Positions 1-26,576 of a stretch of 26,894 bases of DNA are shown piece by piece (position 1 is the first letter of the stretch; each line of letters opens with the position of its first letter). The position numbers and the translations under genes are program-made. Origin of the DNA: a virus; the IMG/VR virus record IMGVR_UViG_3300021092_000170, positions 1 through 26,894 of that record, one strand, 5' to 3'. The notes beneath the pieces were generated by a model. The model saw only the letters and a program-made list of their open reading frames with translations, was not told the origin of the DNA and ran no database searches.

Positions 1-90
1 CAAACAGAATTTCATGAGAAAATTCGTAATGATGAGGACTATGATGATTGGGAATATGGAACTGAACCAACCTATGGCAAACCTCAATAA
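1..90 (+). CDS. C-terminal end of an unidentified upstream gene (partial)
   Basis: The frame starting at base 1 is open for 29 codons and closes with TAA at 88–90. The visible tail is strongly acidic and aromatic (…DEDYDDWEYGTEPTYGKPQ). Its start lies outside the window. It directly precedes gene 25, so in a T4-like structural cluster another baseplate or tail protein would be expected, but 29 residues carry no motif I can assign. The late-promoter-like AATAAATA at 86–93 overlaps its stop codon. Confidence 0.6.
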   Translation, partial: QTEFHEKIRNDEDYDDWEYGTEPTYGKPQ

Positions 91-93
91 ATA
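86..93 (+). promoter_or_regulatory. T4-type late promoter candidate (AATAAATA) before gene 25
   Basis: AATAAATA matches the T4 late promoter TATAAATA at 7 of 8 positions. It overlaps the stop codon of the upstream gene and ends 25 bases before the GTG start of gene 25. The same octamer sits in three other inter-gene gaps of this window at nearly the same distance from a start codon. Late promoter function through gp55-type sigma is inferred from T4. Confidence 0.6.
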
Positions 94-118
94 AAAGTAA
101 TGTATTTGATAGTCACAG

Positions 119-523
119 GTGCCTTTAGAGAATATTTCAAGAGGATTTAAAGATATCAGCTTGTCTTTTCTGAGGCATCCTGTGACTAATGATATTGGAA
201 CACTCTTAAATGAAGATGCAATTAAGCGATCTGTAGTCAATTTAATCAGAACAAGAGTTGGCGAAAGGTTTTTTAACTCACTTTTAGGGTCAAAGGTTGA
301 AAGTTACTTCTTTGAACTTGCAGATAGTGGTATTGTAGATCCTTTACAGGAAGAAATTAAGACTGTTCTTTCTAACTTTGAACCAAGAGTTGTTGTTAGA
401 GATGTAAATGTTGCACTATATCCTGAAGATAATGAACTTGATGTAACCATTACTTATGATATTGTTGGACTTGCTGTTCCAACACAGGCAATTAACTTCA
501 TATTACAACCAACCAGATACTAA
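119..523 (+). CDS. 25: gp25-like baseplate wedge protein
   Basis: This 134-aa protein has the length of T4 gp25 (132 aa) and belongs to the GPW/gp25 family of wedge subunits that attach to the central hub and help anchor the sheath. Visible family features are the N-terminal ISRGFKDISLSF and HPVTNDIGTL segments, the central RVGERFFNSLLGS, and the C-terminal FEPRVVVRDVNV followed by the conserved DVTITYDI strand. The start is GTG at 119: an in-frame TAG at 110–112 excludes an upstream start, and the N-terminus fits the family. There is no clear Shine–Dalgarno. The stop overlaps the gene 6 start (TAATG), so translation of the wedge pair is probably coupled. Product identity is secure; the non-ATG start is the only oddity. 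Confidence 0.95.
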   Translation: MPLENISRGFKDISLSFLRHPVTNDIGTLLNEDAIKRSVVNLIRTRVGERFFNSLLGSKVESYFFELADSGIVDPLQEEIKTVLSNFEPRVVVRDVNVALYPEDNELDVTITYDIVGLAVPTQAINFILQPTRY

Positions 524-2422: not shown

Positions 2423-5400
2423 ATGAATCAAGACAATAAAGTAGTAAAAATTAAGGATATTGTTTATAATCAAATTCCTGAATTTATTCTATCAGATAAT
2501 CCAAATTTTTCAGAATTTTTAAAGCAATATTATACATCACAAGAATTTCAAGGTTCTGCAGTAGATCTTGCAGAAAATTTAATTAATTACAAGAATTTTG
2601 ATGCGTTTGATAATACTAATTTATATTCAGACACTGTACTAACAGAAAATGTAGATTTTTTTGATGATGAGATTTTTGTAGAATCTGTTAGTGGGTATCC
2701 ACAAGAATATGGATTGATTAAGATTGATAATGAAATCATCACGTACACTGGAATTACTACAAATTCCTTTACTGGATGTGTTCGTGGATTTAGTGGCATT
2801 TCATCATTAACACAAGAGAATAATCCAGAATTTTTAGTCTTTTCTCAAACAGAATCTTCAGAGCATACTTCAGGTGCTGCTGTTCAAAACTTAACTAACT
2901 TATTTTTACAAGAGTTTTTTAGAAAAACCAAGTATCAATTTATTCCTGGATTTGAAGAAATTGATTTTGACAGTAGAATTAATGTTCCCAACTTTATTAG
3001 TAAAGCAAGAACATTTTATGAGACCAAAGGAACTGATGAAGCATACAAAATACTGTTCAAAGTCCTCTATGGACAAGATGTAAAGGTCATCAAACCTGAT
3101 GACTATACATTCAAACCATCTGATGATAAATGGACTGTCTGTGAGTCATTTAGATGTGAATTAATATCAGGAGACCCTATTAAATTAGTAGGTCAAACAC
3201 TTTATCAAGATAAAAGTGTAGATGGAAGAATTTTACCAGCTTCTGGTTCAATCTATAGTGTTGATAGGTTTTATGTAAAGAATAAAGTCTTCTATAAAAT
3301 TAATTTATTCTCTGGATATTCTGCAAACTTAAGTTCAACTGGTTCTATTTTTGGTTCTTTTCTAGAGACTCCAAAAACTTATGTTGTAGAAGATATTTCT
3401 TCAGGTGCAAATGTTATTACAGTTGATTCTACTATTGGATTTGAAAAATCTGGAACTATCTACATTAATGATCTTACAGTAACTTATACAGATAAAACAA
3501 CAAATCAATTTTTAAATTGTTCTGGAATTTCTCAAAGTATACTTTCAAAATCAGAAGTATATGGAGACAATTTTGTTTATGGATATCAAGCAGACTCAAA
3601 CACTCAAGTTAAATTGAGAATAGTTGGTTCTCTTTCAGGAATAGAGTATTCTACAGTTTCTTATGCACTCAAAGGTGACCCAATTAAAGTAGATAATTTA
3701 GGAAATCTTGATGACAATCCTTTTACAAAATCTTTAATTTATAATTTACCTTTAACTGTATATTCTGGTGTATTGACTACATCATTACCAAATTATAGTT
3801 TAGAGGGAATCAGCTTATCTACTGGAAATGTAAAAACTTTACACAATCACAAATTGAGAAATAGTGATGTTGTAGATTTATATAGAACCAACTTTAATGA
3901 AAGAATTAAATCTAATGTAGATGTTTCTACAAGTAATGCAACTCCAAAACAGTACACAATTAACGTGTCTGGAATTTCTTCCTATGTTGGATCAAGAATA
4001 ACTGCAAAAAGAAAATTATTTAAATCACAGTCAACAACATATCCAGAAGTTAATAATAAGTTTACTGCAAATATTCAAAACTCTTTTGTAGATGAAACTT
4101 ATAACTACATAACTTCTAATGGATTTCCTAATTATAACATAACTCCATACAAAAGACAATTTTCATTTACTGTAAATCAAAGTGACTATGAATCTTTAGA
4201 AGGATCTCATAATTTTTATGATGGTGAATTAGTAACTGTAACTAATTACACTATTACTGGCAATTATTCCAATCCAGTTGGTGTTACTACAGGTGTATCT
4301 TTTTATGTTAAAAACATTAATGGTGATACTATTAAATTAGCATATTCTGCAGAAAATATTGCCAATTCATCTTTTATTAGTTTTTATGAATTAGTCAATC
4401 CTCCTGTAAACAATTCTGTTAAAGGATATGTTAGTTCATTTACTTTGATTGATAATAGTTTATATGGAAACACATTTACTTCAGCAAAAATATTTAAAAA
4501 GTTTCCTAAAATTCCAAATGTTCTAATTTCTGATGTAGAAACATTACCAGGACCAATAGGAATTTTAGCAAATGGCGTAGAAATCAAAAATTACAAATCT
4601 TATGATAAAGTTTACTATGGTGAAATAACATCTATTAATATTTTAAACCCTGGAACAAATTATGATATTGCAAATCCTCCAAGATTTTTAATCAATAATG
4701 GAAATGATACTCAAACCACTGTTATACCTCAATTAACTGGTAAAATAACTAAATTAATTGTAACTGATCAAGGATTCAATTATACTAAACCTCCAACAAT
4801 CACAGTGTTTGGTGGAGGAAATGATTCTGTAAAGACTGAAGTTAAAATGAAACTTCAGGCAAAAGAATTAGAGTTTACTGCATCTTCTGCAGGAGGGTAT
4901 GTTAGTGATATTAATGACCAGTTTACATTCCCATCCAAGCATTATCTTATAACTGGAGAAGAAGTTGTATATCAAACTTTAGGAGGGTTTCCAATAGGCA
5001 TAGGAACCTTAGCAAGTGAATACTTAGTTAATGATAGCGTTTACTATGTAATTACTGTTGGTGCTGGAACATCATTTAGATTAGCTTATACTAAAAATGA
5101 TGCTTTAACAAATAATTATATTTCTATTAGAGAATATGGGGCAGGAACTCAAAGGTTTGTATCAACCAAAAAGAAACTTGTAGTAGATTCTGTCAATTTA
5201 ATTGATGTAAACACTGAATTTAAATATAAAAAAGTATTAGCAGGACCTAATGATGTAAACCATTATGATAGTGTTATTACCATAAAAAATCATGGGTTTT
5301 CTACAGATGATGAAGTAAGATATTCTTTTTCTGGCACAACTTTATCAGGAATTAGTACAGAAACAAATTATTATATTCACAAAATAGATGAAAATAGATT

Positions 5401-8400
5401 TAAATTAAAAACAAGCAAAACTTCAACAACATATGTTGACTTTGGAGTTTCTGATATATTTTCAATTTACTTCTTTGAATATTCACCAATTAGAGTAAAT
5501 GTTTCTGGTTCTCTTGCAACAGATGGACAAGGAAACATTATAGGTTCTCAAGCAACAATAAAACCTATAGTTTTAGGCAAAGTTACTGAAGTACAAACTG
5601 GATTCTTTGGGCAGTATGGATATGGAACTCCAACAATCCTTAATTATAAAAATGCTCCAACAATTAAGGAATTGGTTGGAGAAGGAGCAAACTTAGAACC
5701 TGTTGTAGTAGATGGTAAAATTATTAAAGTAATAGTTAAAAGTTCAGGAAACAACTATTACAATTCTATCAAGTTAATTGTTGAAGGTTCTGGTTATGGT
5801 GCTCAACTTGAACCTGTGATAGTAAATGGACAGATTACCTCTATATCAATTGTTAATGGTGGTGTTGGGTATAACAGTTCAACTGATATAAAAATAGACC
5901 CTGTAGGCAAGAATTTAAAACTTTCCACTAATTTACAGTCTTGGTCATTAAATGAAATATACAAATTAGGTTCAACTAATGTTTCTTCAGGGGTTCTTTT
6001 AGGAAAGAAACACTCATACTTTGGAAATACTTTTAACATCTTTTATCTAAACTCTGATTTGTGGTCACAGTTTAATATTCCAGAATTAGCAACAAATCAA
6101 AATCCAACATCACATTCTTCAATAATTGGATGGGCTTATGATGGTTCTCCAATTTATGGTCCAGATGGATACACTAATCCTGATGGAACTGGTGGGTTTA
6201 GAAGAATGACCTCAAGTTATCAAATAAAATCTACATTATCAACAAATAGACCAGATTCCTCTACATTCCCTCCAGGTTCACTTATAGAGGACTATGAGTA
6301 TGTTGAAGGTCTTGGAAGATTGGACAAATATAATGGAAGATTCTGTGCAACTCCAGAATTTCCAAATGGTGTATATGCATATTTCTGTACTGTTTCAAAT
6401 ACAAGAAACCCAATATTCCCATACTTCATAGGAAATTACTACAAGTACACGCCAGAACAGGATAATTTAGATTTAAGAATTAATCAAGATTTAAACTTTA
6501 ACGCTTTAAACATATCAAAACACACCCTTCCATATGGTGTAGAAAATAAACAAAATTATTATGAATACTTTAACTTTAATGAAAAGTCAAAATCAGGAGA
6601 AATTTTAGTCACAAATTCTTCAAGAGGACGAGTTGATGATGTTCTTGTTGTTAATGGTGGATTTAATTATTCAATAGGTAATAGAATATCTTTTGACAAC
6701 TCCAATACTGGTGGGTTTGGAGCTTTAGCAGAAGTATCAGAACTTTCTGGAGTTGGAATTAATAGCATTCAATCTTCAACTCAAACACTATCTAATGTAA
6801 CTTTGATTTATGAAAAAGGTTCAGTTGTTGGTATTGCTACTACAACTCACAACATTAAGGATAAAAGTTATATTAAAATTTCTGGAGTGTCTACAACTAC
6901 ATTCTCTGATTTAGAAGGATTTGTTCAAGTAAATGTTCCATTAAAAGAAACGCAATTACTTGAAGGGATATCTGACCAAACTACTACTGGAATAGTTACT
7001 TCAATTCAAGTCAAAGATTCTATCTTAAATTTTGACATAGATTCTTTAATTAAGATAGACTCAGAAACTTTGAAAGTAATTGGATTGGATTTCACAAACA
7101 ACTTTATTAATGTTTTAAGGGAAAGTGGAGCAACATCTCATAATTTAGGAACATCAGTCACACTACTGCAAAGTAGATTTAATTTCAATTCTTCTAGTTC
7201 AGATCTCCCTCCTAAAAATGAAGCATACTACTTCAATCCACAACAATCTGTATCTGTAGGAGTTTCTACTGCAATTGGTGCAGGAAACACATTATCAATT
7301 TTACCATTAGGATATGGAGTAAGCAATACTGAATTTATTCCCACTGGAAGAATTTTCTTACCCAATCACAAATTTAAAACTGGAGAAAAAGTAATTTATA
7401 CTCCTGCAGAAAATTCAATAGTGGTTTCTGAATTTGGCAATTTAAGTGGGATTTCAACTTTATATGTTGTCAAAATTGATAATAATGTAATTGGACTAAC
7501 AAGTTCAATTACAACAACTAACAGTACTGATAATCTCTTATTATACACTTCAGCAGAAAACAATTACCTTCATAAGTTAAATTCAAATAGAAGTGTTGTT
7601 ACTGCTAATGTCAATACAAATAAAACTGTAGTATCTACAGCACAAACTCATGGATTATTAGTTGAGGATAAAGTATACTTAACTGTAAATTCTGGAGTCA
7701 CTACAACATATATTGCATCATATGATACATCAACAGCAAAGTTAAGAATAAACTCTCAAAATAACCCTAATGTTAATGCTTATGAAAATGAAATTGTGAC
7801 ATTTGATACATCTTCTGATACTCTCTCTGATACTAATTTTAAATTATATACAGATTCTGAATTTAAAAACGAATACTTGGGAAATGTACAAAATGGTATT
7901 GAAGTTACAAAAACTTCTACAGCACTAACTTTAAGAATTTCAAGATATACCCCTAAAATTCTTTATTACAATATAGAGTCAACCTCCAAAAAAGTATTTT
8001 CAGATGAATCTGTATTTAAATTTAATACTATCAATATAAATCCAAGTTTGTATAATGATATTGTTGTTGGCATTACTACAGTCTCTGATAATTCTTTTGA
8101 AGTTAATTATCCAGTAGACCCAGAAAATAGACATTATATTTCAGGAATTTCTACACTATCTTATAAGGTAACTTCTTCAAATACTCCTGGTTCTATAAGT
8201 AAAGTTAAATTATTGTCTAAAGGAAGTGAGTATCAAAGACTGCCAAAGATATCTTCAATTTCTGGAAATGGATCTGGATCTAATTTAATACCTATTAGTA
8301 AAAGCATAGGAAAAATTGTAAAAAGCACTGTTGTAAATGATGAATGTGTCTTGCCATTTGATAAAACTTTAAAACCATTTTCAAAAGGATACTCATCAAC

Positions 8401-10681
8401 ATTTGTATACAATAATTATAAAGTTGAGACACTAAGTATTGTTGAAAGAGGAGCAAATTATTTAAGTGCTCCTAAAATTAATTTGTATAGTGTTGAGTCT
8501 AGCGACTTAGTTCCTGATTTTGCTGCTAATGTTACTATTAGAAATGGATCATTAGATGAAATTGAACTTGTCAATCCAAGTTCTGGGTTATATTCTACAG
8601 ATGATAAAATAGTCTTTACAGAAAATAATAATGGATTAAAAATTCTTGGAATAAGCACTGCATTTGCTTCAAATCAATATCAAATTACTTTAACCTTAGA
8701 AACACCAATATCAGGATTTACTACAAGCAATCCATTACCATTTTTAATTGATGATGAAATTTTTGTAGAAGGAATAGAAGAAAATCTTGGTGCAGGATAC
8801 AACTCATCAGATTATGATTACAACTTCTTTAAAGTTGTTGGAGTACAAACTTCTCTTGGATCTGAAAATGCAGCTCAAATAACATATCAATTAAAACAGT
8901 ATCCTGGAGTGTTTTCTGTAGAAGGAACTTTAGATAATAATGCCTATGTTGTAAACTCTAATATCTTACCTAAAGTTACAGCAAATCTTGTAGAAAATAT
9001 TTTCTACAGTAATGAGTCAGTAGCAGATTCTACAATAATCTCAAATCAAAATAATGACCCTGTAACGAATTTATTAAAAATCAAAAATCCAAATTCTGTA
9101 CAAGTTGGAAATATTCTAACTGGAACTTCAAGTTTATCAAAAGGTAAAGTTTATAAGATTGAAAATTACAATTTAATTTTAAAATCTTCCTCAAGTGTTC
9201 TTAAAACTATAGGATGGCAAACCCAACAAGGTCAATTATCATCTACTGTACAAAAACTTCCAGATAATGATTATTATCAAAGATTTGCTTATTCACTTAA
9301 GAGTAAAAAATCATTAAGTGATTGGGATTCAGTAGTGTCTGACACCTCTCATGTTGCAGGATATAAAAAGTTTAGTGATTTAGTAGTAGAATCTTTACCA
9401 TCTGGAATTTCTTCTATTACAACAGATGATTCATCAAAGGTTAATATTGCTCTTAGTTCTTTTGCAGACCTAACCACAATTAATGATTTTGATTTAGTCT
9501 TTGAGAATGTTGAAGATTACAATCTCACAGCATCAGATATTATTAAATTTAACAGTAAAGTTTTGTCAGATTATTTATTATCAAAAGAAAATTTAGTTTT
9601 AAAAATAGATGATATCTCTAATTTATTTAATACTACTGTTCCACCAGTGGTTGTAATTCCTATAGATGAAATTACTGGCAGTCTTGTTTCAAAATATGTA
9701 TTTTTTGTAGAAGCTTCAAATTCTTTCTTGGGACCATTTTTATTCCCACAATTCTTTGAATTATTAGTAACCAGAAATGGAGAAATCATAAACTTGACTT
9801 CATATTCTTATTTTGAAAGTAATGATTTTGGAAAAGTTACTGCAGAACCTTTGGGCGATAATACAATGGTCATTAATTATATTCCAGTCAACATATTCAA
9901 TTCTTTGTCAATTAAAGCTGTTAGAGAAAATGTAGACACAGTTGTAGGAGTTTCTACAACATCATACGGTTATGTTAGAAATGTTACAGTGACTTCAAAT
10001 TATGCCTCTGAAGTTTCTCCAACCCAGAAAACAATTTACTCAATACCATTATCAGAATCATCTTCTGGCACTTTGTTTGTAGGAATATCTTCACAATTAA
10101 ACCGTATTGAAAGTTCCCAAGAAATGGCATTTTTATATGATTCTGGATGTGTTCAATATAATAACTATGCATCAAACCAAATAGTTGGATTAGGAACTAT
10201 TGGCATTTCTACTTCTGGAGGAGATTTATTAATTACTTATGATGGAGTTTCTGGTGTTGGAGTGACTGTTTACAGCAACATTACATTCTTAACCAATACA
10301 TTAACTTCTCCAAGTGAAATAGTTGATTCTCCAACAAGATTAAATAGTTCTGCAGTTTCTGGAAGTTATACTTCTGGAAATGATGAAATTATTGCTACCA
10401 TTTCAGCAGACTATGCGGCATCAAAATATGGTATTGAAGTGACTAAAACTGTAGGAGTAACTACACAAAAAAGTTTTGTTTTACTTGACACAATTCACTA
10501 TCAACAAAATACCTACTTAAATAATATAAACTATTCTGTACTTGGAAATATTGATGATTTATCCTTTGAAACCACTTATGAATCAGGTACAAATTCTTAC
10601 TTATTATCTTACATTCCAGCAAATAATGCCAATTACTCCATTAAATTCTTTGAGAAAAATATTTTAACAACACAATCATAA
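2423..10681 (+). CDS. giant virion structural protein at the gp7 position, with YHYH-like domain
   Basis: This 2752-aa protein lies between genes 6 and 8, where T4 encodes gp7 (1032 aa). A role as a baseplate wedge component is inferred from position. The first ~240 residues (IPEFILSDNPNFSEFLKQYY, then ARTFYETKGTDEAYKILFKV) are a domain I recognise from marine T4-like phages. Residues ~90–126 and ~335–370 each hold an 'I-x-I-D-x-E-I-I-T-Y-T' type module. Residues ~735–2060 hold eight 'V-x-N-x-G-x-x-Y' beta repeats and about five 'H-x-F-x-T-G-E-x-V-x-Y' repeats. Residues ~1195–1340 form a YHYH-like domain (WAYDGSPIYGPDGY at 1237, then LDKYNGRF, then FPYFIGNYY), with YAYF at 1318–1321 where YHYH is expected. 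The last ~480 residues lack these repeats. No signal peptide or membrane segment is seen. Virion role is likely; exact location is inferred. Confidence 0.85.
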   Translation: MNQDNKVVKIKDIVYNQIPEFILSDNPNFSEFLKQYYTSQEFQGSAVDLAENLINYKNFDAFDNTNLYSDTVLTENVDFFDDEIFVESVSGYPQEYGLIKIDNEIITYTGITTNSFTGCVRGFSGISSLTQENNPEFLVFSQTESSEHTSGAAVQNLTNLFLQEFFRKTKYQFIPGFEEIDFDSRINVPNFISKARTFYETKGTDEAYKILFKVLYGQDVKVIKPDDYTFKPSDDKWTVCESFRCELISGDPIKLVGQTLYQDKSVDGRILPASGSIYSVDRFYVKNKVFYKINLFSGYSANLSSTGSIFGSFLETPKTYVVEDISSGANVITVDSTIGFEKSGTIYINDLTVTYTDKTTNQFLNCSGISQSILSKSEVYGDNFVYGYQADSNTQVKLRIVGSLSGIEYSTVSYALKGDPIKVDNLGNLDDNPFTKSLIYNLPLTVYSGVLTTSLPNYSLEGISLSTGNVKTLHNHKLRNSDVVDLYRTNFNERIKSNVDVSTSNATPKQYTINVSGISSYVGSRITAKRKLFKSQSTTYPEVNNKFTANIQNSFVDETYNYITSNGFPNYNITPYKRQFSFTVNQSDYESLEGSHNFYDGELVTVTNYTITGNYSNPVGVTTGVSFYVKNINGDTIKLAYSAENIANSSFISFYELVNPPVNNSVKGYVSSFTLIDNSLYGNTFTSAKIFKKFPKIPNVLISDVETLPGPIGILANGVEIKNYKSYDKVYYGEITSINILNPGTNYDIANPPRFLINNGNDTQTTVIPQLTGKITKLIVTDQGFNYTKPPTITVFGGGNDSVKTEVKMKLQAKELEFTASSAGGYVSDINDQFTFPSKHYLITGEEVVYQTLGGFPIGIGTLASEYLVNDSVYYVITVGAGTSFRLAYTKNDALTNNYISIREYGAGTQRFVSTKKKLVVDSVNLIDVNTEFKYKKVLAGPNDVNHYDSVITIKNHGFSTDDEVRYSFSGTTLSGISTETNYYIHKIDENRFKLKTSKTSTTYVDFGVSDIFSIYFFEYSPIRVNVSGSLATDGQGNIIGSQATIKPIVLGKVTEVQTGFFGQYGYGTPTILNYKNAPTIKELVGEGANLEPVVVDGKIIKVIVKSSGNNYYNSIKLIVEGSGYGAQLEPVIVNGQITSISIVNGGVGYNSSTDIKIDPVGKNLKLSTNLQSWSLNEIYKLGSTNVSSGVLLGKKHSYFGNTFNIFYLNSDLWSQFNIPELATNQNPTSHSSIIGWAYDGSPIYGPDGYTNPDGTGGFRRMTSSYQIKSTLSTNRPDSSTFPPGSLIEDYEYVEGLGRLDKYNGRFCATPEFPNGVYAYFCTVSNTRNPIFPYFIGNYYKYTPEQDNLDLRINQDLNFNALNISKHTLPYGVENKQNYYEYFNFNEKSKSGEILVTNSSRGRVDDVLVVNGGFNYSIGNRISFDNSNTGGFGALAEVSELSGVGINSIQSSTQTLSNVTLIYEKGSVVGIATTTHNIKDKSYIKISGVSTTTFSDLEGFVQVNVPLKETQLLEGISDQTTTGIVTSIQVKDSILNFDIDSLIKIDSETLKVIGLDFTNNFINVLRESGATSHNLGTSVTLLQSRFNFNSSSSDLPPKNEAYYFNPQQSVSVGVSTAIGAGNTLSILPLGYGVSNTEFIPTGRIFLPNHKFKTGEKVIYTPAENSIVVSEFGNLSGISTLYVVKIDNNVIGLTSSITTTNSTDNLLLYTSAENNYLHKLNSNRSVVTANVNTNKTVVSTAQTHGLLVEDKVYLTVNSGVTTTYIASYDTSTAKLRINSQNNPNVNAYENEIVTFDTSSDTLSDTNFKLYTDSEFKNEYLGNVQNGIEVTKTSTALTLRISRYTPKILYYNIESTSKKVFSDESVFKFNTININPSLYNDIVVGITTVSDNSFEVNYPVDPENRHYISGISTLSYKVTSSNTPGSISKVKLLSKGSEYQRLPKISSISGNGSGSNLIPISKSIGKIVKSTVVNDECVLPFDKTLKPFSKGYSSTFVYNNYKVETLSIVERGANYLSAPKINLYSVESSDLVPDFAANVTIRNGSLDEIELVNPSSGLYSTDDKIVFTENNNGLKILGISTAFASNQYQITLTLETPISGFTTSNPLPFLIDDEIFVEGIEENLGAGYNSSDYDYNFFKVVGVQTSLGSENAAQITYQLKQYPGVFSVEGTLDNNAYVVNSNILPKVTANLVENIFYSNESVADSTIISNQNNDPVTNLLKIKNPNSVQVGNILTGTSSLSKGKVYKIENYNLILKSSSSVLKTIGWQTQQGQLSSTVQKLPDNDYYQRFAYSLKSKKSLSDWDSVVSDTSHVAGYKKFSDLVVESLPSGISSITTDDSSKVNIALSSFADLTTINDFDLVFENVEDYNLTASDIIKFNSKVLSDYLLSKENLVLKIDDISNLFNTTVPPVVVIPIDEITGSLVSKYVFFVEASNSFLGPFLFPQFFELLVTRNGEIINLTSYSYFESNDFGKVTAEPLGDNTMVINYIPVNIFNSLSIKAVRENVDTVVGVSTTSYGYVRNVTVTSNYASEVSPTQKTIYSIPLSESSSGTLFVGISSQLNRIESSQEMAFLYDSGCVQYNNYASNQIVGLGTIGISTSGGDLLITYDGVSGVGVTVYSNITFLTNTLTSPSEIVDSPTRLNSSAVSGSYTSGNDEIIATISADYAASKYGIEVTKTVGVTTQKSFVLLDTIHYQQNTYLNNINYSVLGNIDDLSFETTYESGTNSYLLSYIPANNANYSIKFFEKNILTTQS

Positions 10682-20900: not shown

Positions 20901-21455
20901 CTCACATTAGACTTTAATTTAGGAACTACTGATTCTAATGTATCACCAATTATTAATGTTGAAAAATCTTTCTTAACCATTAATAATAATAGAATTACTC
21001 AACCAATTGTTGGGGTTGCTTATACTACTGATAACAGAGTTAATTCAAATGTGGATGACCCACACACATTCATCCACATTACTAATAGAGTTGATTTACT
21101 GCAAAGTGCAAATGCCCTGAAAGTTCTTCTGGATGCTTATAGACCAGCAGACTGTGACATTAGAGTTCTTTACAAAACATTTAGAAATGATTCTCCAGAC
21201 GAAGACCAAGTTTGGAGTTTGTTCCCAGGATACACTAATTTAGATGTAAATGGAAACATAAAAAATCAAGCTTATAATAATGGACTGTCTGATAAACTTG
21301 TGCCATCAAGTTTAGTAAATCAATATTTGGAATATGAATATACTATGAACGACTTGGAAGATTTCACAGGATTTGCAATTAAGATTGTGTGCTCAAGTAT
21401 CAATCAAGCAGTAACACCAATTATTGAAAACTTGAGAGTGATTGCATTAAAATAA
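14997..21455 (+). CDS. giant DUF4815-domain virion structural protein
   Basis: This 2152-aa protein opens with a DUF4815 domain: residues ~10–65 (YFDDFSEDKNYYKVLFKPG, SRELTTLQSILQNQIEKFG, TNGGVVIPG), ~195–275 (EGVYFVRGYFIGVD) and ~355–390 (LLKVSPGKAYVKGYEIP). Residues ~485–530 and ~861–905 hold two 'SGA–x–G … F-x-x-GE' modules. Residues ~1520–1700 form a second conserved region (YYDPLAQSFIV, then VDVFFASKDSNLPVTLQIRE, then QPSLGSLFISQNATTWTAVQ). Near 1789 is a 'PGYISIDGEIIKYE … RG' module. The last ~200 residues (SANALKVLLDAYRPADCDIR, EYEYTMNDLEDFTGFAIKI) are typical of marine T4-like phages. It occupies the place of T4 genes 9–12, so a peripheral baseplate, tail-pin or fibre-attachment role is inferred. 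Two small ORFs follow with overlaps. DUF4815 has no assigned biochemical function. Confidence 0.88.
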   Translation: MPQSTNLNKSPYFDDFSEDKNYYKVLFKPGTTVQSRELTTLQSILQNQIEKFGTAFYTNGGVVIPGASNYDGNVTCVEIENTYKGINVEAYYESLIGVTIKGKVTGISAKVVKVLSSEDSERANTTLYVKYISSSDSSDDQSFVKEVFDDGEELITLSDIPVGDSYIFTNSEFARVISLTNRKATSVGSAANLTEGVYFVRGYFIGVDASTIILDQYTNTPSYRVGLEIVEDIIDSDEDSSLNDNAQGFSNYAAPGADRLKITLNLSKKSIDDFSDDNFIELFRVTNGLVTSIKKDDKYSFINEILARRTYDESGNYYVNPSDVQSLESLNDNLGNGGLYTETQRTLDGSVPSIDLGLLKVSPGKAYVKGYEIPTSNVLIDYPKPRTTKSVESSSASFCGGDLIRVNNVNGSPNLGLTTTFSVSLLDQRLTNQVATGTTVGFARVYDFESHNTSFESPSSQANLYLFDIQTYTNLTLSGSIAELAVGSYVKGKNSGAFGYAKDVSGVSVKLYQVSGKFSVGETLIVDGIEFSPTISTVRDYSIDDVKSIYNQSVEFVADTLLSKQTSINGQFTAQIDSGIGTITSNNGGSFASTLKVNDVLSFSRAGLTSSVYVRITSIEGSNNQIAVVGESTVGNVCTGNIGSGTTFYQISDLKVIKPQIVANSESSSLYTKLNHNNISNVSTLNSNVYIKKQYTGVSKSSTTLTLPTLVGDYVYASFDEERYVVVNANGTLENLSNATFTRSNGNKDAEFTNLSSTAGPCSVITTQIKSNVTNKFKKLNRCSSVVISKTKYSTPPNAGLTSTSIYGTRVEDAEISLNYADVLEVQGVFESTETETPTPPWISLTGITGPNGNTFDLILGEVLIGQDSGAVAIYAENKTSSEIYVIYKNQKVFSASEVVSFKESGYSATVSTVNVGSTNITNDFILDNGQRKQFYDFGRIVRKNSSKEPSHRINVYFDRFSFESTDNGDVITVNSYPSSVNKNKIATFNQVRNLDTIDVRPRVSDYNTASTISPFEFASRDFSGSGSNATQILSSNEDFVFDYSFYLARYDKLTLSSVGEFELVLGASSENPKLPTISKEVLDVATIIAIPYVYDINTDIVIQLTDNRRYTMSDLRDIENRVESLEYYTSLSLLESTTKNLLIEDADGFNRFKSGFFVDNFSSYDFSNTESLIYRAEVQDNSVSSPTAKNLVNLSLYSDNSQKTISEIKLSETNSSNLKLTGNSLTLSYTEAEHTKQPFASRISNINPYQVVTWTGLLTLNPSSDTWTTKISQSIRIASGRGSWTESRVSTKPIEYIRSRNIEFVATRLKPNSKFKLLFDSKEISSNIDGFTYVFPKLLQVSDVTGSFQVGETVTAYTNSISNNNQKICTFRLCTPNHKSGTYNSPESVFTTNPYSTSSGIATVYGPQSTLLNVDTSSLQIANTSKFYGNLIKGCKLYGETSKSIATVSQNQLIADNNGTLIGSIFIPETTKSNLKFKTGSTPVKVTQSTSLGVPGEFVSSAEAVFTSSGTEIKTTTINYYDPLAQSFIVSDQNGIVPSSVDVFFASKDSNLPVTLQIREVINGIPGGPDKIIEGLEKVLNPSGITTSSDASKATTFRFDNLTRLEGGKEYAIVLLSDSFDYNVWISRLGEVEISTAKLPEVQKVIINSQPSLGSLFISQNATTWTAVQTDDLKFTLNKCKFSTTGGTARFYNSKVEVEDSENLLPTNPIVVGVGSDAPNNGYFMQIIHPNHGMNSASNVVKIEGVSTDVTPTTLTAGYGITETGTISVTSNSNFTTFEGQSVSSANPGYISIDGEIIKYEDASVAGQLSVITRGIQNSPVINHSTTTSLVYKYEFNGVSLIGINTTHTISNSHPVTVDSYYIGVGKSFTSSKFGGGDSVYATKNKLYNTVGISSEFVSVFNGTTCAASLRSISGQSVDGNESPFADQGYSSLSISNTNIFNNIRLVASEENENQFLNATQFPGNKSLTLDFNLGTTDSNVSPIINVEKSFLTINNNRITQPIVGVAYTTDNRVNSNVDDPHTFIHITNRVDLLQSANALKVLLDAYRPADCDIRVLYKTFRNDSPDEDQVWSLFPGYTNLDVNGNIKNQAYNNGLSDKLVPSSLVNQYLEYEYTMNDLEDFTGFAIKIVCSSINQAVTPIIENLRVIALK

Positions 21456-21682
21456 TGAATAAGTATGCTAAAGTTGAAGGTCACACAAATATTATTAGAG
21501 ATTTGAAAACAAATGCAATCATTAATACAGACATTCAGGGAATGCAGAATTATATTTCTTCTAAAAACAAAAGGATGAATGACAAACAGGTCATGGATAC
21601 CTTGATAGATGATGTTGATGATTTGAAACAATCCATAGAAGAAATTAAAGGATTATTGAGGAGCATTTTAAATGGACCCTGA
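21455..21682 (+). CDS. small conserved phage protein with predicted coiled coil
   Basis: This 75-aa protein begins with ATG overlapping the stop of the DUF4815 gene (TAATG). The N-terminal half (KVEGHTNIIRDLKTNAIINT) resembles small proteins that I recall near structural genes of many T4-like marine phages; the family has no known function. The C-terminal third (TLIDDVDDLKQSIEEIKGLL) has hydrophobic residues spaced like a coiled coil, which suggests an oligomeric or partner-binding role. Its stop overlaps the next small ORF by 11 bases. Translational coupling to a giant structural gene suggests a minor virion or assembly protein, but this is inference. Confidence 0.8.
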   Translation: MNKYAKVEGHTNIIRDLKTNAIINTDIQGMQNYISSKNKRMNDKQVMDTLIDDVDDLKQSIEEIKGLLRSILNGP

Positions 21683-21848
21683 AAAATTAGAACTTGAGAC
21701 TATTTCAAAATTATTTGAATATGAAAAGATTTCAAGAGAACTTGATACTTGTACTAATATTGATTTAATGAGAAATCTTTGCAAATGTTATGTGAAGTTG
21801 TACATGAAGCAAGAGGAAGTTGTAGCAAACTTGGTTAAAGGTTTCTAA
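21672..21848 (+). CDS. 58-aa hypothetical protein overlapping the 75-aa gene
   Basis: ATG at 21672 lies inside the end of the 75-aa gene and the frame runs to TAA at 21846–21848, giving 58 residues. The product is alpha-helical in character, with mixed charge (MDPEKLELETISKLFEYEKI, then SRELDTCTNIDLMRN), and has three cysteines (C-T…C-K-C). Without it, 21683–21869 would be a 187-base hole in an otherwise gap-free cluster, and the reading frame fills it exactly up to the gap before gene 13. No function is recognised. It is likely a real small gene expressed by coupling with its neighbour. Confidence 0.7.
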   Translation: MDPEKLELETISKLFEYEKISRELDTCTNIDLMRNLCKCYVKLYMKQEEVVANLVKGF

Positions 21849-21869: not shown

Positions 21870-22700
21870 ATGGCAAAACCAGCATCAAGACAAGAATTAA
21901 TTGACTATGCTTTAAGGCAACTTGGTGCTCCTGTTCTGGAAATTAACGTTTCAGAAGAACAGATAGATGATAGATTAGATGATGCCCTTCAGTATTTTAA
22001 TGAAAGGCATTTTGATGGCGTAGAAAAAATGTTCTTGAAGTATAAGTTTACTCAAGATGATATTGATAGGGGTAGAGCACGTGGTGGAGCAAAAACTGCT
22101 GGCATAGTTACTACCACTGTTTCATCTGGAATAGGAACTTTTGGGTGGGAAGAAAACTCAAACTACATTCCAATTCCTGATGCTGTTATTGGAGTAGAAA
22201 GAGTATTTAAACTTGACAACAGAACTATTACGTCAAACTTGTTTAATGTTAATTACCAGTTATTCTTGAATGATATTTACTGGTTTAATTCCACTGAACT
22301 TGTAAACTATTATGTTACCAAAAGATACTTGGAAGATATTGATTGGATTGTAAACCCACAAAGACAAATTAGATTTAATAAGAGACAAAATAGACTGTAT
22401 ATTGATATGAGTTGGGATAGCATTGTGGCAGGAAATTATCTTATTATGGAGTGTTACAGAATCTTAGACCCAGCAAATTATTCCAAAGTCTATAATGATT
22501 ATTTCTTAAAACTGTATTTTACAGCATCCCTTAAAAAGCAGTGGGGACAGAACTTAATTAAATTCCAAGGAGTTAAACTTCCTGGTGGTGTAGAACTGAA
22601 TGGACGTCAAATCTATGATGATGCTGTCAAAGAATTAGAAGATATTAGAATGAGAATGATTAGTGAGTTTGAAACTGCTCCATTTGATCTTATAGGATAA
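21870..22700 (+). CDS. 13: gp13-like neck (head completion) protein
   Basis: This 276-aa protein is slightly shorter than T4 gp13 (309 aa). gp13 and gp14 close the filled head and form the collar to which the tail joins. The N-terminus is diagnostic: LIDYALRQLGAPVLEINV, then IDDRLDDALQYFNERHFDGV. Further conserved stretches are NYIPIPDAVIGVERVFKL, LFLNDIYWFN and YFLKLYFTASLKKQWGQNL near the C-terminus. Gene 14 follows after one base, which is the T4 order. A short GIVTTTVSSGIGTF segment near residues 78–91 contains the Gly/Thr-rich wording seen in the repeat-bearing neighbours. No clear Shine–Dalgarno is seen before this ATG. Confidence 0.93.
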   Translation: MAKPASRQELIDYALRQLGAPVLEINVSEEQIDDRLDDALQYFNERHFDGVEKMFLKYKFTQDDIDRGRARGGAKTAGIVTTTVSSGIGTFGWEENSNYIPIPDAVIGVERVFKLDNRTITSNLFNVNYQLFLNDIYWFNSTELVNYYVTKRYLEDIDWIVNPQRQIRFNKRQNRLYIDMSWDSIVAGNYLIMECYRILDPANYSKVYNDYFLKLYFTASLKKQWGQNLIKFQGVKLPGGVELNGRQIYDDAVKELEDIRMRMISEFETAPFDLIG

Positions 22701-22701
22701 T

Positions 22702-24069
22702 ATGTTAAATCCATTTTTCATACAAGGCACATCAGGGGAACAAAGTCTTGTTCAGGATTTAATTAATGAACAGTTGAAAATGTATGGCATAGAAGTTTAT
22801 TATATGCCACGACAATATATTACTGAAGGAAAAGTCATAAAAGAAGTCCTGTATTCAAAATTTACTTCTGCTTTTCCTATTGAAGCATATCTGGTCAATT
22901 ATGAAGGATTTGACCCTAACAGCATTTTAATGAGTAAGTTTGGGGTTAAAATTACTGATGAAATGAACCTCATCATTTCAAAAGAGCGATTTGAAACTTA
23001 TGTTGGTGAACTGATGAAGGGTATTAGTAATGTAAAAAATGCATTACGACCAAATGAAGGTGATTTAATTTATATTCCATTAAGTGATAGCTTTATGGAA
23101 ATCAAATATGTTGAAAATAGAAAACCATTTTACCAACTTCAGAAGAATTATGTCTATGAGTTAAGATGTGAACTTTATGAACTTGAAGATGAAGAGATCG
23201 CAACAAGTTTGCCTGAAATTGATTCAGTAAGAACCTATGATGCAACACTTCAACTTTCTGGAATAGGAGTAACTGCAACAGCAAATACATCTCTTGTATC
23301 AGGTGCCATTCAGAAAATAACTGTTATTAATGGTGGATATAGATATTCTTCAGTACCAACTGTTAATATTTCTGCACCCCTTTCTGGAAAAAAGGCAAGA
23401 TTTGTTGGTGTGATGACAAGTAGAACTGCTTTACTTTCATCTCAAAGTTTAGGTACGATATACATAGAAGATCCTGGATATGGATACAATCCAAACAGCA
23501 CGCCAATAGTTTCTATTGTTGGAGGTGGTGGATACAATGCAAGTGCAACAGTTGGTATAGCAACAACAGGAAGTATTGGTCCAATTTTTCTTTCTAATAT
23601 TGGTCAAGGATATGTTACTGAACCTGTTGTAACAATATCTGGTCCTGTATCTGGAGGAACTACTGCTATTGCCAAAGCATTTTTAAATGGCACTGGAGGC
23701 ATTTCCACTATTAGAATTGTAAATGCAGGTTATGGATATACACAAACTCCAACCATTACTATCTCTGCAGGAAGTTCTGTATCTACTGGCAACTTCCTGT
23801 TTAATGAAATAGTCACAAGCACAGTTTCAGGTGCATCAGGAAGAGTTACAGATTGGGATGCTGAAACTAAACAACTTAAAGTTACTGGTTTTGGAACTAA
23901 TTTTTCTGTTGGAGATGTAATTGTTGGTGCTGCATCAAGTGCAATCTATGTTGTCTCAAGGGCACCACAATATGATGCAGCAGAAACTTATGACTCATCT
24001 GATGATATTCAAGATGAATATGATGATATTGTAGATTTTACAGAAGTCAATCCTTTTGGGGAGATTTAA
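22702..24069 (+). CDS. 14: gp14-like neck protein with inserted beta-repeat domain
   Basis: The first ~185 residues match T4 gp14 (256 aa): MLNPFFIQGTSGEQSLVQDL, IEVYYMPRQYI, NEGDLIYIPLSDSFMEIKYV and KPFYQLQKNYVYELRCELYE. Residues ~203–358 are extra: four tandem repeats of the type 'I-x-V-x-N-x-G-Y-x-Y-x-x-x-P-x-V-x-I' (INGGYRYSSVPTVNI, EDPGYGYNPNSTPIV, SNIGQGYVTEPVVTI, VNAGYGYTQTPTITI). Residues ~366–425 hold a 'VSGASGRV … FSVGDVIVGAASSA' module. The protein ends in an acidic tail (YDDIVDFTEVNPFGEI), like the acidic T4 terminus, so the repeats look inserted rather than appended. A good AGGA Shine–Dalgarno lies about five bases before the ATG. With gp13 it forms the neck; the repeats probably project from the collar. 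Confidence 0.92.
   Translation: MLNPFFIQGTSGEQSLVQDLINEQLKMYGIEVYYMPRQYITEGKVIKEVLYSKFTSAFPIEAYLVNYEGFDPNSILMSKFGVKITDEMNLIISKERFETYVGELMKGISNVKNALRPNEGDLIYIPLSDSFMEIKYVENRKPFYQLQKNYVYELRCELYELEDEEIATSLPEIDSVRTYDATLQLSGIGVTATANTSLVSGAIQKITVINGGYRYSSVPTVNISAPLSGKKARFVGVMTSRTALLSSQSLGTIYIEDPGYGYNPNSTPIVSIVGGGGYNASATVGIATTGSIGPIFLSNIGQGYVTEPVVTISGPVSGGTTAIAKAFLNGTGGISTIRIVNAGYGYTQTPTITISAGSSVSTGNFLFNEIVTSTVSGASGRVTDWDAETKQLKVTGFGTNFSVGDVIVGAASSAIYVVSRAPQYDAAETYDSSDDIQDEYDDIVDFTEVNPFGEI
23308..23776 (+). repeat. four tandem GxGY protein repeats encoded within gene 14
   Basis: Four diverged protein repeats begin near 23308, 23455, 23575 and 23701. Each has a beta strand, then G-Y-x-Y, a Pro, and a second strand ending in a Gly-rich turn. 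They are recognisable mainly at the amino-acid level. The same repeat occurs eight times in the 2752-aa protein, three times in the 912-aa protein and once in gp8. Confidence 0.7.
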
Positions 24070-24106: not shown

Positions 24107-24823
24107 ATGGCTATTGGACCTCAAGGTAGAATAGGACCACAAGGATCAAGAGGACCACAAGGATCAAGAGGACCACAAGGATCAAGAGGACCACAAGGTG
24201 CTATTGGACCTCAAGGTAGAATAGGGCCACAAGGTGCTCAAGGTGCACGAGGACCTCAAGGTGCACAAGGTGCAAGAGGACCTCAAGGAGCACAAGGACT
24301 ACAAGGTGCAGCAGGACTTCCAGGATCAAAAGGTTTAGTAGGTCCTCAAGGTGCACGAGGACCTCAAGGTGCACAAGGATTATCTGGTTCAGGGGGACCA
24401 CAAGGATCAAGAGGACCACAAGGTACATCAGGTTCTGCAGGAACTCTTGCAAGAACTACAATAACTGGAACAACAGCTTCTATAGCAAATGCTGCTTCTG
24501 CAAATATTACATTAACTGGTTTCAAGAGTTACTTGTTATCAAAAATTGCAACAAGTCATGCAGCATGGATTACTTTATATGTTTCTAATGCTGCAAGAAC
24601 TGCAGATGCTACAAGAGGTGAGCAAGTTGATCCATTACCAGGGTCTGGAGTAATTGCTGAAATTATCACCACTGGAGCAGCAACTGTATTACTTACTCCA
24701 GCAACTATTGGATGGAATAATGATGTTCCTCCCAGTACAAGCATTTATGCAAAAGTCGTTAATAGATCTGGAGCTTCTGCTGCAATAACAGTTACATTAA
24801 CTGCAGTTCAATTAGAATCCTGA
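24107..24823 (+). CDS. collagen-like fibre protein
   Basis: This 238-aa protein has two parts. Residues 4–111 are 36 uninterrupted Gly-X-Y triplets (13 are GPQ; the rest are mainly GSR, GAQ, GAR, GRI), predicting a collagen triple helix of roughly 30 nm. Proline is almost always in X; only GLP places it in Y, so stability without hydroxylation is plausible. Residues ~113–238 are a beta-rich C-terminal domain (TGFKSYLLSKIATSHAAWIT, VDPLPGSGVIAEIITTGA, ATIGWNNDVPPSTSIYAKVV) of a kind seen at the ends of phage collagen-like fibres and probably trimerising. There is no signal peptide. It lies between genes 14 and 15, under its own late promoter candidate and one base before a protease gene. A virion fibre or neck appendage is the likely role; receptor binding is possible. 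Confidence 0.88.
   Translation: MAIGPQGRIGPQGSRGPQGSRGPQGSRGPQGAIGPQGRIGPQGAQGARGPQGAQGARGPQGAQGLQGAAGLPGSKGLVGPQGARGPQGAQGLSGSGGPQGSRGPQGTSGSAGTLARTTITGTTASIANAASANITLTGFKSYLLSKIATSHAAWITLYVSNAARTADATRGEQVDPLPGSGVIAEIITTGAATVLLTPATIGWNNDVPPSTSIYAKVVNRSGASAAITVTLTAVQLES
24134..24187 (+). repeat. three perfect 18-bp tandem repeats in the collagen-like gene
   Basis: The unit GGACCACAAGGATCAAGA occurs three times in a row and a fourth partial copy follows at 24188; related units recur at 24407–24424. Each unit encodes GPQGSR. Perfect DNA identity implies recent slippage or recombination changing the length of the triple helix by two triplets per unit. Confidence 0.9.
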
Positions 24824-24824
24824 T

Positions 24825-26576
24825 ATGGAAAAAGAATACGTAGTCACATTAAAAAATTATGATGATTTAGATTCTTTTTATGATGAAATGGAAACACAGG
24901 GAAATTGTTTTCCTCATAGAGTTCCAGAAAGAGAAATTGCATGTGTTAATAAAAGACCTATTAGTAGAAATACACATTACTTATTGACTGACGAAGAAGC
25001 AGAAACTTTGAGAAAGGATAGAAGAGTTCTTGCAGTAGAACTTCTTCCATCAGAACTTGGATTAGTACCTACTCCATATCGAACTCAATCTGCAACTTTT
25101 CAAAAAAGTTCTACAATTACGAGCACTGAAAAAAATTGGGGATTGCGTAGATGTATTGGAGCACTTGGACAACCATTAAGTATTAATAAATGGGCATTTC
25201 CTGTTCCTACTGGAGGATCTAGCACATCATTTGCAACTATAAAAACTACAAGTTCTGGAAAAAATGTAGATGTAGTCATTGTAGATTCTCACATTAATCC
25301 CCTTCATCCAGAGTTTGCTGTAAATGTTGATGGTACTGGAGGAACTAGAGTCAATCAATTTAATTGGTTCCAATACAGTTCTGCACTAGGTTATACAAGT
25401 AGTGGTTCTTACAGCTATGCAAATGTATCTTCCAATCATGGAACTCATGTTGCAGGAACTGTAGCAGGAAACACACAAGGTTGGGCAGGAGATGCAAATA
25501 TTTACAATATGGAATTTGATTATGCTGGGGCAGTTTCAGGAGCTCCAGCTGCTGGTCAAATTACAACAACTGATTGGCCTTTATATATTTTTGATTACTT
25601 GCGTTATTTTCATAAAAATAAACCAATTAATGCCACAACAGGAAGAAGAAATCCAACAATTACTAATCACAGTTGGGGATATATGATAACAACTCCTATT
25701 AATTTAAGTAGCATTTCCTCTGTAACTTATAGAGGAGTGACTAAAACTGTTACTGGAACTAATCCTCAAAGAAAGACAACATTAGAAGCAAATGGAGTTC
25801 CAGTTCCAACAGGAACATCTCTCCTTAATACTCCTCAAAGATATCCAGCTTTGGATGCAGATATTCAAGATGCCATAAATGATGGTGTGGTAGTTATTGG
25901 GGCAGCAGGAAACAGTCGTTGGAAAATTGATGTTCCTGGAGGAACTGATTATAATAATAGTGTTACAACAACCGGAGGTTCTATAATTTATCATTCTCAA
26001 GGAAGCTCTCCAGGGGCTGCTAATAATGTAATTTGTGTAGGATCACTGGGAACTGATCCAGATTTAGAACAAAAATCAGATTTTAGTAATTGTGGACCAA
26101 GAGTTAATGTATATGCACCTGGATCTAATATAATTTCATCAGTTTATAATTCATCAGCAGCATCTGAATTTAGTATTACATTAGCAAATGATCCCAGAAA
26201 TGCTTCTTTTAGGATAGGATCTATTTCAGGAACCAGCATGGCTAGTCCTCAAGTTGCTGGTGCTATAGCATGTTTAGCAGAGCAATATCCAAGAATTAAT
26301 AATTCATTTGTTTTGAAATATTTGACAGAAAATTCTCAACCAGCAGTTTATCAAGGAGTTGGGATTAACACTTCACCTTACAGAAATACTCAAGGATCTC
26401 CAAATAGACTTTTAGTTTATAAAGAAGAAAGATTAATTCCAGAGTCTATAAAATCTTTCACTTTAGATCCATATGGTTCTGTAATAACTCAACCAAGAGA
26501 TAGATTTAATACAAGAAGCTCATCTACATTAAAATATCCAAGAAGAAACGTTAGTTTTTCTAAAATATCTGAGTAA
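24825..26576 (+). CDS. subtilisin-family (S8) serine protease with I9-like propeptide
   Basis: This 583-aa protein carries the full S8 catalytic set: Asp154 (VDVVIVDSHINPLHPEF), His205 (HGTHVAGT), oxyanion Asn363 (VVVIGAAGNS) and Ser471 (GTSMASPQVAGA). The Asp motif reads D-S-H rather than the usual D-T/S-G. Residues ~4–75 resemble an inhibitor I9 propeptide: a YVVTLKNYDDLDSFYDEM strand–helix, then HYLLTDEEAETLRKDRRVLA leading into the VELLP end strand. NWGLRR near 104 is the usual start of the mature domain. No signal peptide is visible, so it probably acts in the infected cell or as a virion part. The basic, Ser-rich last ~50 residues could anchor it. It starts one base after the collagen-like gene. 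Substrate is unknown; fibre processing, virion maturation or attack on host surface protein are all possible. Confidence 0.9.
   Translation: MEKEYVVTLKNYDDLDSFYDEMETQGNCFPHRVPEREIACVNKRPISRNTHYLLTDEEAETLRKDRRVLAVELLPSELGLVPTPYRTQSATFQKSSTITSTEKNWGLRRCIGALGQPLSINKWAFPVPTGGSSTSFATIKTTSSGKNVDVVIVDSHINPLHPEFAVNVDGTGGTRVNQFNWFQYSSALGYTSSGSYSYANVSSNHGTHVAGTVAGNTQGWAGDANIYNMEFDYAGAVSGAPAAGQITTTDWPLYIFDYLRYFHKNKPINATTGRRNPTITNHSWGYMITTPINLSSISSVTYRGVTKTVTGTNPQRKTTLEANGVPVPTGTSLLNTPQRYPALDADIQDAINDGVVVIGAAGNSRWKIDVPGGTDYNNSVTTTGGSIIYHSQGSSPGAANNVICVGSLGTDPDLEQKSDFSNCGPRVNVYAPGSNIISSVYNSSAASEFSITLANDPRNASFRIGSISGTSMASPQVAGAIACLAEQYPRINNSFVLKYLTENSQPAVYQGVGINTSPYRNTQGSPNRLLVYKEERLIPESIKSFTLDPYGSVITQPRDRFNTRSSSTLKYPRRNVSFSKISE

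Follow-up and report, generated by a model that had tools for sequence, protein, structure and literature searches.

An apparently nested, repeat-bearing insert in the gp14 neck protein of a T4-like virus

In phage T4 the neck protein gp14, which sits between the gp13 dodecamer and gp15, forms a hexamer (PDB 9lu4-9lu7, 9mkb) whose 256-residue chain runs from body to tail without any module or repeats between them. The virus record analysed here encodes a gp14 of 455 residues, which raises the question of what the additional sequence is, how widely it is found and what it might do where the head meets the tail. The window is the entire virus record, 26,894 bases; since it lacks the majority of T4-like genes, we regard it as part of a larger T4-like genome. 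Its source virus is T4-like and most closely resembles the viruses of marine cyanobacteria.

The gp14 gene and its conserved ends

The gene order of the window is gp25, gp6, a baseplate-wedge ORF of 2752 aa, an ORF of 912 aa, gp8 and an ORF of 2152 aa, followed by a pair of small ORFs. Next come gp13 and gp14, then the genes for a collagen-like protein and an S8 subtilase, and finally the beginning of gp15. The 276-aa gp13 (21870..22700, plus strand; head-tail adaptor Ad2, phrog_211, 2e-44) lies directly upstream of gp14 (22702..24069, plus strand; head closure Hc2, or neck protein), and gp15 follows downstream beyond the collagen-like and subtilase genes, the order 13-14-15 being that of T4.

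Both the sequence and the fold of the body resemble T4 gp14. Residues 2-178 match the Pfam family T4_neck-protein (PF11649; 1.1e-29, 104.1 bits against a cut-off of 25), the best-matching family is the PHROG head closure Hc2 family phrog_460 (residues 2-321, 3.4e-114), and phrog_679, the family named in the annotation of a T4 record, matches residues 1-185. We delimit the body as residues 1-176 (22702..23229, plus strand), its end being approximate. The solved relatives returned by a sequence search were those of T4 only, and the T4 gp14 structures 9lu4-9lu7 align to residues 28-162 of our model (28-165 in one case) with Z scores of 9.6-10.4; the best of these matches, 9lu4_M (Z 10.4, rmsd 3.2, 100 residues), was obtained with a gp14 model that is of low confidence in the body.

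At the other end of the protein is an acidic tail, residues 425-455 (23974..24066, plus strand), with a net charge of -12 and ending in NPFGEI. We followed gp14 through four contig scans, three with repeat-bearing queries (the window gp14 and two divergent relatives) and the fourth with the gp14 of pelagiphage HTVC008M, whose own record is included. The protein was counted in 77/80, 79/79, 72/73 and 78/80 of the loci new to scans one to four, respectively, and a few of the counted ORFs start inside a cut contig. A C-terminal NPFG is present in 227 of the 228 gp14 ORFs from the repeat-query contigs and in all 78 from the HTVC008M-query contigs. Among 16 named phages, 13 have the NPFG end, the exceptions being T4 (SPFD), Vibrio R11Z (NPFD) and ACG-2014f (DPFG). 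An xPF motif, shared by the window and T4 proteins, ends gp14 in all six phages that carry the whisker gene wac (SSPFDNDF in T4, SNPFDSF in R11Z); gp14 of Kamild, K440 and F360 is without it. The C-terminal peptide, residues 437-453, is conserved about as well as the body (0.63 versus 0.66 to the window). That both the body and the acidic tail are kept had been proposed from the DNA letters, and the family matches and the tail bear this out. In T4, the stretch of gp14 from residue 178 onwards has no ordered structure until the tail joins, whereupon it contacts gp15 (PMC12270204), which places the insertion point of the enlarged protein at a mobile arm.

Anatomy and predicted fold of the insert

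Between body and tail lies an insert of about 247 residues, 177-424 (23230-23973). The sequence-only reading had described an internal domain enlarging gp14 and placed it at 23300-23980 (residues 200-426); a folded, repeat-bearing domain is indeed present with both protein ends kept, and the proposed limits were close but slightly too narrow. The insert opens with a first strand, residues 177-189 (23230..23268, plus strand; 177-186 or 178-186 in the AlphaFold2 models), whose membership of a barrel is suggested by discontinuous fold matches. Four repeats of 31-50 aa with a consensus like GYxxxPTVTIS follow, all on the plus strand: R1, residues 190-234 (23269..23403); R2, residues 235-284 (23404..23553); R3, residues 285-326 (23554..23679); and R4, residues 327-357 (23680..23772). 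The probable barrel module M, residues 358-420 (23773..23961, plus strand), completes the arrangement, and is found uninterrupted and free of repeats in the gp14 of S-SM1. A wrong reading frame or a fusion was rejected as the source of this layout, because the ORF is open throughout, retains the conserved sequence at either end and has counterparts built alike in hundreds of contigs.

The gp14 repeats are protein-level repeats. A profile built from other contigs only gave the window gp14 96.4 bits, against a best score of 6.4 among shuffles of the insert (1000 made, 980 of them scored). This profile is the independent test, as the other repeat profile, used for copy counts across phages and window ORFs, includes the window itself. 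A tandem array at the DNA level was rejected: within the gene the DNA repeat finder detected nothing beyond three direct pairs, all short, and a single inverted pair. Between phages, repeats that share a position resemble one another more closely than do those from different positions (0.50 versus 0.37), which argues that the array is old and has been kept in order.

The middle of gp14 also matches tail-fibre, baseplate-wedge and virion-structural PHROGs. In the 2752-aa baseplate-wedge ORF of the window (2423-10681) seven gp14-repeat domains are listed, some of them weak, with the best at residues 773-799 (i-E 7.8e-7); shuffled window proteins reach i-E 0.005 in the repeat search, and weaker copies in other window ORFs may thus be chance. 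The same ORF matches phrog_460, the gp14 family, probably by way of its repeat copies.

AlphaFold2 modelling of the insert alone, from an alignment of 105 natural sequences, resulted in a confident model (mean pLDDT 91.5, pTM 0.80) that is built of strands and contains no helix of four or more residues. In the full-length model the insert was again confident and the body weak (mean 70.4, pTM 0.47), and this model therefore does not predict which way the insert is oriented. Comparison of the insert with solved structures by Foldseek gave no match at E<=0.001. The best listed fold match was a Klebsiella phage chain (9f4a_A0; Z 7.1, rmsd 2.3, 71 residues, range 7..252/252), and most of the listed matches run discontinuously from the first to the last strands of the insert, with about 55-77 residues aligned. 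We read the insert as probably one small barrel, formed by residues near 177-189 and 358-420 and interrupted by the repeats; a Z score below 8 can reflect a common arrangement, and the barrel reading therefore leans more on natural variants. Domain I of T4 gp18, the surface domain of the tail sheath, is likewise an inserted domain in a contractile-tail protein, in a different protein and at a different position. R1-R2 weakly resemble the fold of this domain (3foa_A; Z 6.1, rmsd 3.0, 77 residues), within the range of common arrangements.

Pfam returned one match on the window insert (E 0.072, under the cut-off), and across the 105 insert members the best E value was 0.0036, with no family matching more than two members. 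Laminin_G and concanavalin-like lectin profiles had no match in the window gp14 at E<=1 or, for the insert by itself, at E<=0.1. When four further gp14s were scanned, that of S-SSM7 alone (L086:4995-7283) gave a lectin-like match, a Laminin_G_3-like stretch at residues 323-448 inside its insert (7.6e-6, one bit below the curated cut-off).

The natural variants suggest how the parts were assembled. In the 308-aa gp14 of S-SM1 the module is uninterrupted (4.4e-15) and there are no repeats. In S-RIM2, S-RSM4 and Syn9 (375-390 aa) two repeats follow the strand whose S-RIM2 sequence contains GDFTVGEE, as aligned with S-SM1, and in proteins of the window type the repeats precede the matching strand, GNFLFNEI standing after them. 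The insert thus looks nested, with the repeats interrupting a small barrel module that itself lies between the body and the C-terminal peptide; insertion inside the module leaves both of these undisturbed. Two insertion places in one module suggest, from the aligned sequences, at least two captures. In the tree of gp14 bodies S-RIM2, S-RSM4 and Syn9 do not form one clade, and since the S-RSM4 branch is very long (1.6) the tree does not settle the number of captures.

A small barrel at this place recalls Hfq, a host hexamer that lies under T4 gp14 before the tail docks, and the insert might be a built-in plug doing the same job. Residue S177 of T4 gp14, which adjoins the insertion point, is among the Hfq-contacting residues (PMC12270204), and a small-barrel fold is probable for the module. 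However, no Hfq or Sm-fold chain occurs among the fold matches listed (the best 50 at most per search) and some relatives are without the module, and we regard a plug as very improbable.

Variation among relatives and the likely use of the insert

Four repeats and one module are present in 227 of the 228 contig gp14 ORFs from the three repeat-query scans, a figure biased by the queries rather than an unbiased frequency. The sole exception to the combination of four repeats, module and NPFG (L044:2775-4142) has its gp14 frame interrupted by a stop. In the likewise query-biased HTVC008M set, repeats or module occur in none of the 78 gp14 ORFs. Named phages span a wider series. T4 (256 aa) and HTVC008M (290 aa) have neither module nor repeats, and R11Z (279 aa) has no repeats. 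Two repeats are found in S-RSM4 (375 aa), S-RIM2 and Syn9 (390 aa), four in P-HM1 (442 aa), P-SSM2, S-SM2 and S-SKS1 (491 aa), six together with the Laminin_G_3-like stretch in S-SSM7 (762 aa), and eight in S-CAM9 (657 aa) and S-PRM1 (656 aa; seven at a stricter threshold); in the longer proteins of ACG-2014f and S-CAM7 one or two repeats were detected. These counts depend on the threshold, a larger search space lowering S-CAM7 from two to one and S-PRM1 from eight to seven.

In annotated phages, the insert alone matches 135 records, some of the matches being to other virion genes, and the gp14 body alone matches 2343. All but one of the 135 are labelled Synechococcus, Prochlorococcus, cyanophage or marine virus, the remaining record being a 'Bacteriophage sp.'. 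Named relatives such as S-SM2, P-SSM2 and S-SSM7 carry in their gp14 the same type of insert as the window, with differences in repeat number, insertion place and extra domains. Many T4-like phages of cyanobacteria ordinarily have an enlarged gp14, and such proteins have long been deposited in databases, plainly annotated as neck protein, head closure or the like; a description of the insert layout was not found in our literature searches. The insert is less well conserved than the body: among 1751 pairs formed from 60 contig gp14s, all but two (1749) show the lower identity in the insert (means 0.46 versus 0.67), the pairs being non-independent.

The neighbouring collagen-like fibre protein (24107..24823, plus strand), an accessory gene of near kin, lies outside the gp14 feature. 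It occupies, with the S8 subtilase, positions 24107-26576 between gp14 and gp15, and in relatives ORFs of various lengths with the collagen C-terminal part are found in the same place. This part is present in 15/80 first-scan loci, whereas neither the later scans nor 14 phage records contain it; the subtilase is present in 6/80 first-scan loci and in no other set. Where gp14 and gp15 were both found, the gap between them is below 100 bases, overlaps included, in 46/55, 70/70, 51/59 and 67/67 loci of scans one to four. Among the window's kin this interval is a slot in which the fibre genes vary, and the pairing of the gp14 repeats with a collagen-like fibre, as had been suggested for the window, does not generalize.

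What the insert does can be approached from these patterns. We lean, with some reserve, towards an outward-facing auxiliary domain at the head-tail joint, a reading for which variable copy number, conservation below that of the body, the lectin-like extension of S-SSM7 and the mobile, gp15-proximal insertion point all argue; that some relatives are without the insert counts against it. The insert would be a beta-rich addition to the gp14 of T4-like phages that mostly infect cyanobacteria. gp14 would still close the head and dock gp15 as it does in T4, and, with gp14 a hexamer as in T4, six copies of the domain would protrude round the joint as exposed knobs or arms. Their likeliest use would be weak or reversible contact with sugars of the host surface or with the phage's own fibres, because the repeat recurs in proteins of the baseplate and the tail fibres and a lectin-like domain has been added in one relative.

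Neck appendages are known from another cyanobacterial myovirus, A-1(L), in which fibres of gp80-gp82 are borne on gp5; unlike the gp14 insert, which is built into the hexamer below, these fibres are trimeric proteins in their own right and are attached to an adaptor of 15 subunits (PMC10966104). The distal fibre protein of A-1(L) has a carbohydrate-binding module, and no binding to the host was observed in that account (PMC10966104). As for gp14 in particles, mass spectrometry detected the protein in S-SM1, where it is repeat-free (PMC3037559), and S-SZBM1 virions yielded two short neck proteins of 264 and 291 aa (PMC9146016); in these published proteomics passages we found no repeat-bearing gp14 in virions (PMC3037559, PMC9146016).

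The insert might instead wrap the joint between gp14 and gp15 and strengthen the attachment of head to tail. Its position, after the gp14 body and before the part that binds gp15 in T4 (PMC12270204), would suit such a role, and the flanking NPFG is kept in nearly all the repeat-query contig ORFs. A brace of this kind nevertheless seems unlikely to us, since relatives that share body and tail differ in their number of repeats (0 to about 8), and a lectin-like domain would fit poorly in a joint. Somewhat more improbable still is that the insert is neutral and has spread as a passenger when structural genes recombined. Its repeat is common to other virion genes and changes fast, and the two insertion places suggest repeated capture, but four repeats are retained in all but one of the contig ORFs (a figure biased by the repeat-bearing queries), and the greater likeness of same-position repeats indicates that the array is maintained.

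Whiskers, the gp13 docking domain and the collar

The auxiliary-domain reading has to be set beside the whiskers of T4, which are likewise borne on the neck and possibly of similar use. T4 fibritin, the product of wac, is a trimeric fibre on domain III of gp13 (PMC12270204, PMC3797505); the whiskers thus sit on gp13 and not on gp14, and residues 190-239 of T4 gp13 make up this fibritin-binding domain (PMC12270204). Neither the gene nor the dock was found here. As the sequence-only reading had noticed, wac is not seen: the fibritin profile phrog_1056 gave 0 matches in the window at E<=1, and the Pfam matches of eight window proteins include no fibritin family. At the place that wac has in T4, here positions 21455-21848 from the 2152-aa ORF to gp13, the plus strand contains no ORFs but two small ones (75 and 58 aa). 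In S-SM1 this place, directly before gp13, holds a 1988-aa ORF annotated as a YadA-domain structural protein (L329:9066-15032), and large ORFs are also present there in Syn9, S-RIM2 and P-HM1.

Across a first set of 14 records, six of them contig fragments, phrog_1056 matched T4 only, and across a second set of 14 it matched five fibritin-annotated phages and a weak stretch of S-CAM7 (E 0.03, 67 profile positions). Among cellular control genomes 4/14 matched at E<=0.1 and 7/14 at E<=1, so weak matches to this profile mean little. The Fibritin_C family exceeded its cut-off in 4 of 20 records, all of them wac-bearing; it missed D483, and the search set did not include R11Z, and we counted these two phages as wac-bearing from their phrog_1056 matches (3.5e-79 and 5.2e-104, respectively). 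S-SM1 has a Fibritin_C stretch under the cut-off (E 0.07), and neither it nor the S-CAM7 stretch was counted as wac, both being weak.

The gp13 proteins divide in the same manner. In an alignment of 30 sequences, made in three modes, all 50 of the domain III positions are filled in the six wac-bearing gp13s (T4, R11Z, AS-szw, Konradin, KP15 and D483), versus 9/50 in the other 24, the window included; the missing stretch is one contiguous gap in the gp13 rows displayed. Eleven of the phages with a 9/50 gp13 are whole-genome records (S-SM2, S-SKS1, P-SSM2, S-SSM7, HTVC008M, P-HM1, S-RIM2, S-SM1, Syn9, Kamild and K440), and none of them has a phrog_1056 match at E<=0.1; the remaining 9/50 rows, which comprise the window and contigs, lie mostly outside the whole-record wac searches. 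The alignment is without S-CAM9, S-RSM4, ACG-2014f, S-CAM7 and S-PRM1, and the F360 stretch shows no gp13. At least four of the six wac-bearing phages are filed as Straboviridae and two records carry no family, and the pairing of domain III with wac is therefore to be read as co-occurrence, not as many independent events. A loss of gp13 domain III matching the absence of wac was not found described in a targeted literature search.

The gp13 of S-CAM9 (L089:3871-4992), included in an earlier gp13 alignment, has 373 aa with its own insertion of about 100 residues, and the adaptor ring is therefore also enlarged in some relatives.

With no wac detected and domain III missing from gp13, a T4-type collar in the window virus is unlikely on sequence grounds. 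That the insert is itself a whisker protein was rejected, as phrog_1056 has no match there and gp13 is without the domain. A different possibility is a fibritin-independent collar, in which the six gp14 inserts would do the job of the whiskers, for example holding the long tail fibres or sensing conditions; the sequence-only reading had proposed that the repeats replace whiskers. We consider such a collar doubtful. In its favour, insert-bearing phages have neither a detected wac nor the gp13 docking domain, and S-SKS1, with a four-repeat gp14 and no detectable wac, may, to judge from its name, be the St Kilda cyanomyovirus said to show whiskers in an unpublished observation (PMC2984593). The same source lists wac as absent from cyanomyoviruses, lists the T4-type g34 and g37 as missing too, and describes the cyanomyovirus S-PM2 as being without a collar (PMC2984593). 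S-SM1 and HTVC008M, moreover, have neither detectable wac nor repeats. The missing dock thus lends the proposal some weight, yet the insert is no simple one-for-one substitute for fibritin, and replacement of whiskers by repeats as a general, systematic rule is not supported.

T4-like phages of cyanobacteria are common in the sea. One reading of their necks, which we put forward doubtfully and as a whole, is that these phages lack the whisker unit of wac and the gp13 domain, and that most of those seen carry instead six nested gp14 arms of variable length; the repeats would have been captured independently into two loops of the barrel, with a lectin-like domain beside them in one relative, and the arms would form a collar independent of fibritin, in contact with sugars of the host or with fibres of the phage itself. 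What appears to be new is the nested layout of gp14 and the matching loss of a gp13 domain, the enlarged gp14s themselves being already in databases. The missing whisker dock is one new reason to test the collar idea. The series of gp14s with 0, 2, 4, 6 and about 8 repeats, together with the module-only protein of S-SM1, offers natural variants for tests of neck ornaments, and the gp13 difference, about 41 residues, is a simple sequence sign for the capacity of T4-like phages to bear T4-type whiskers.
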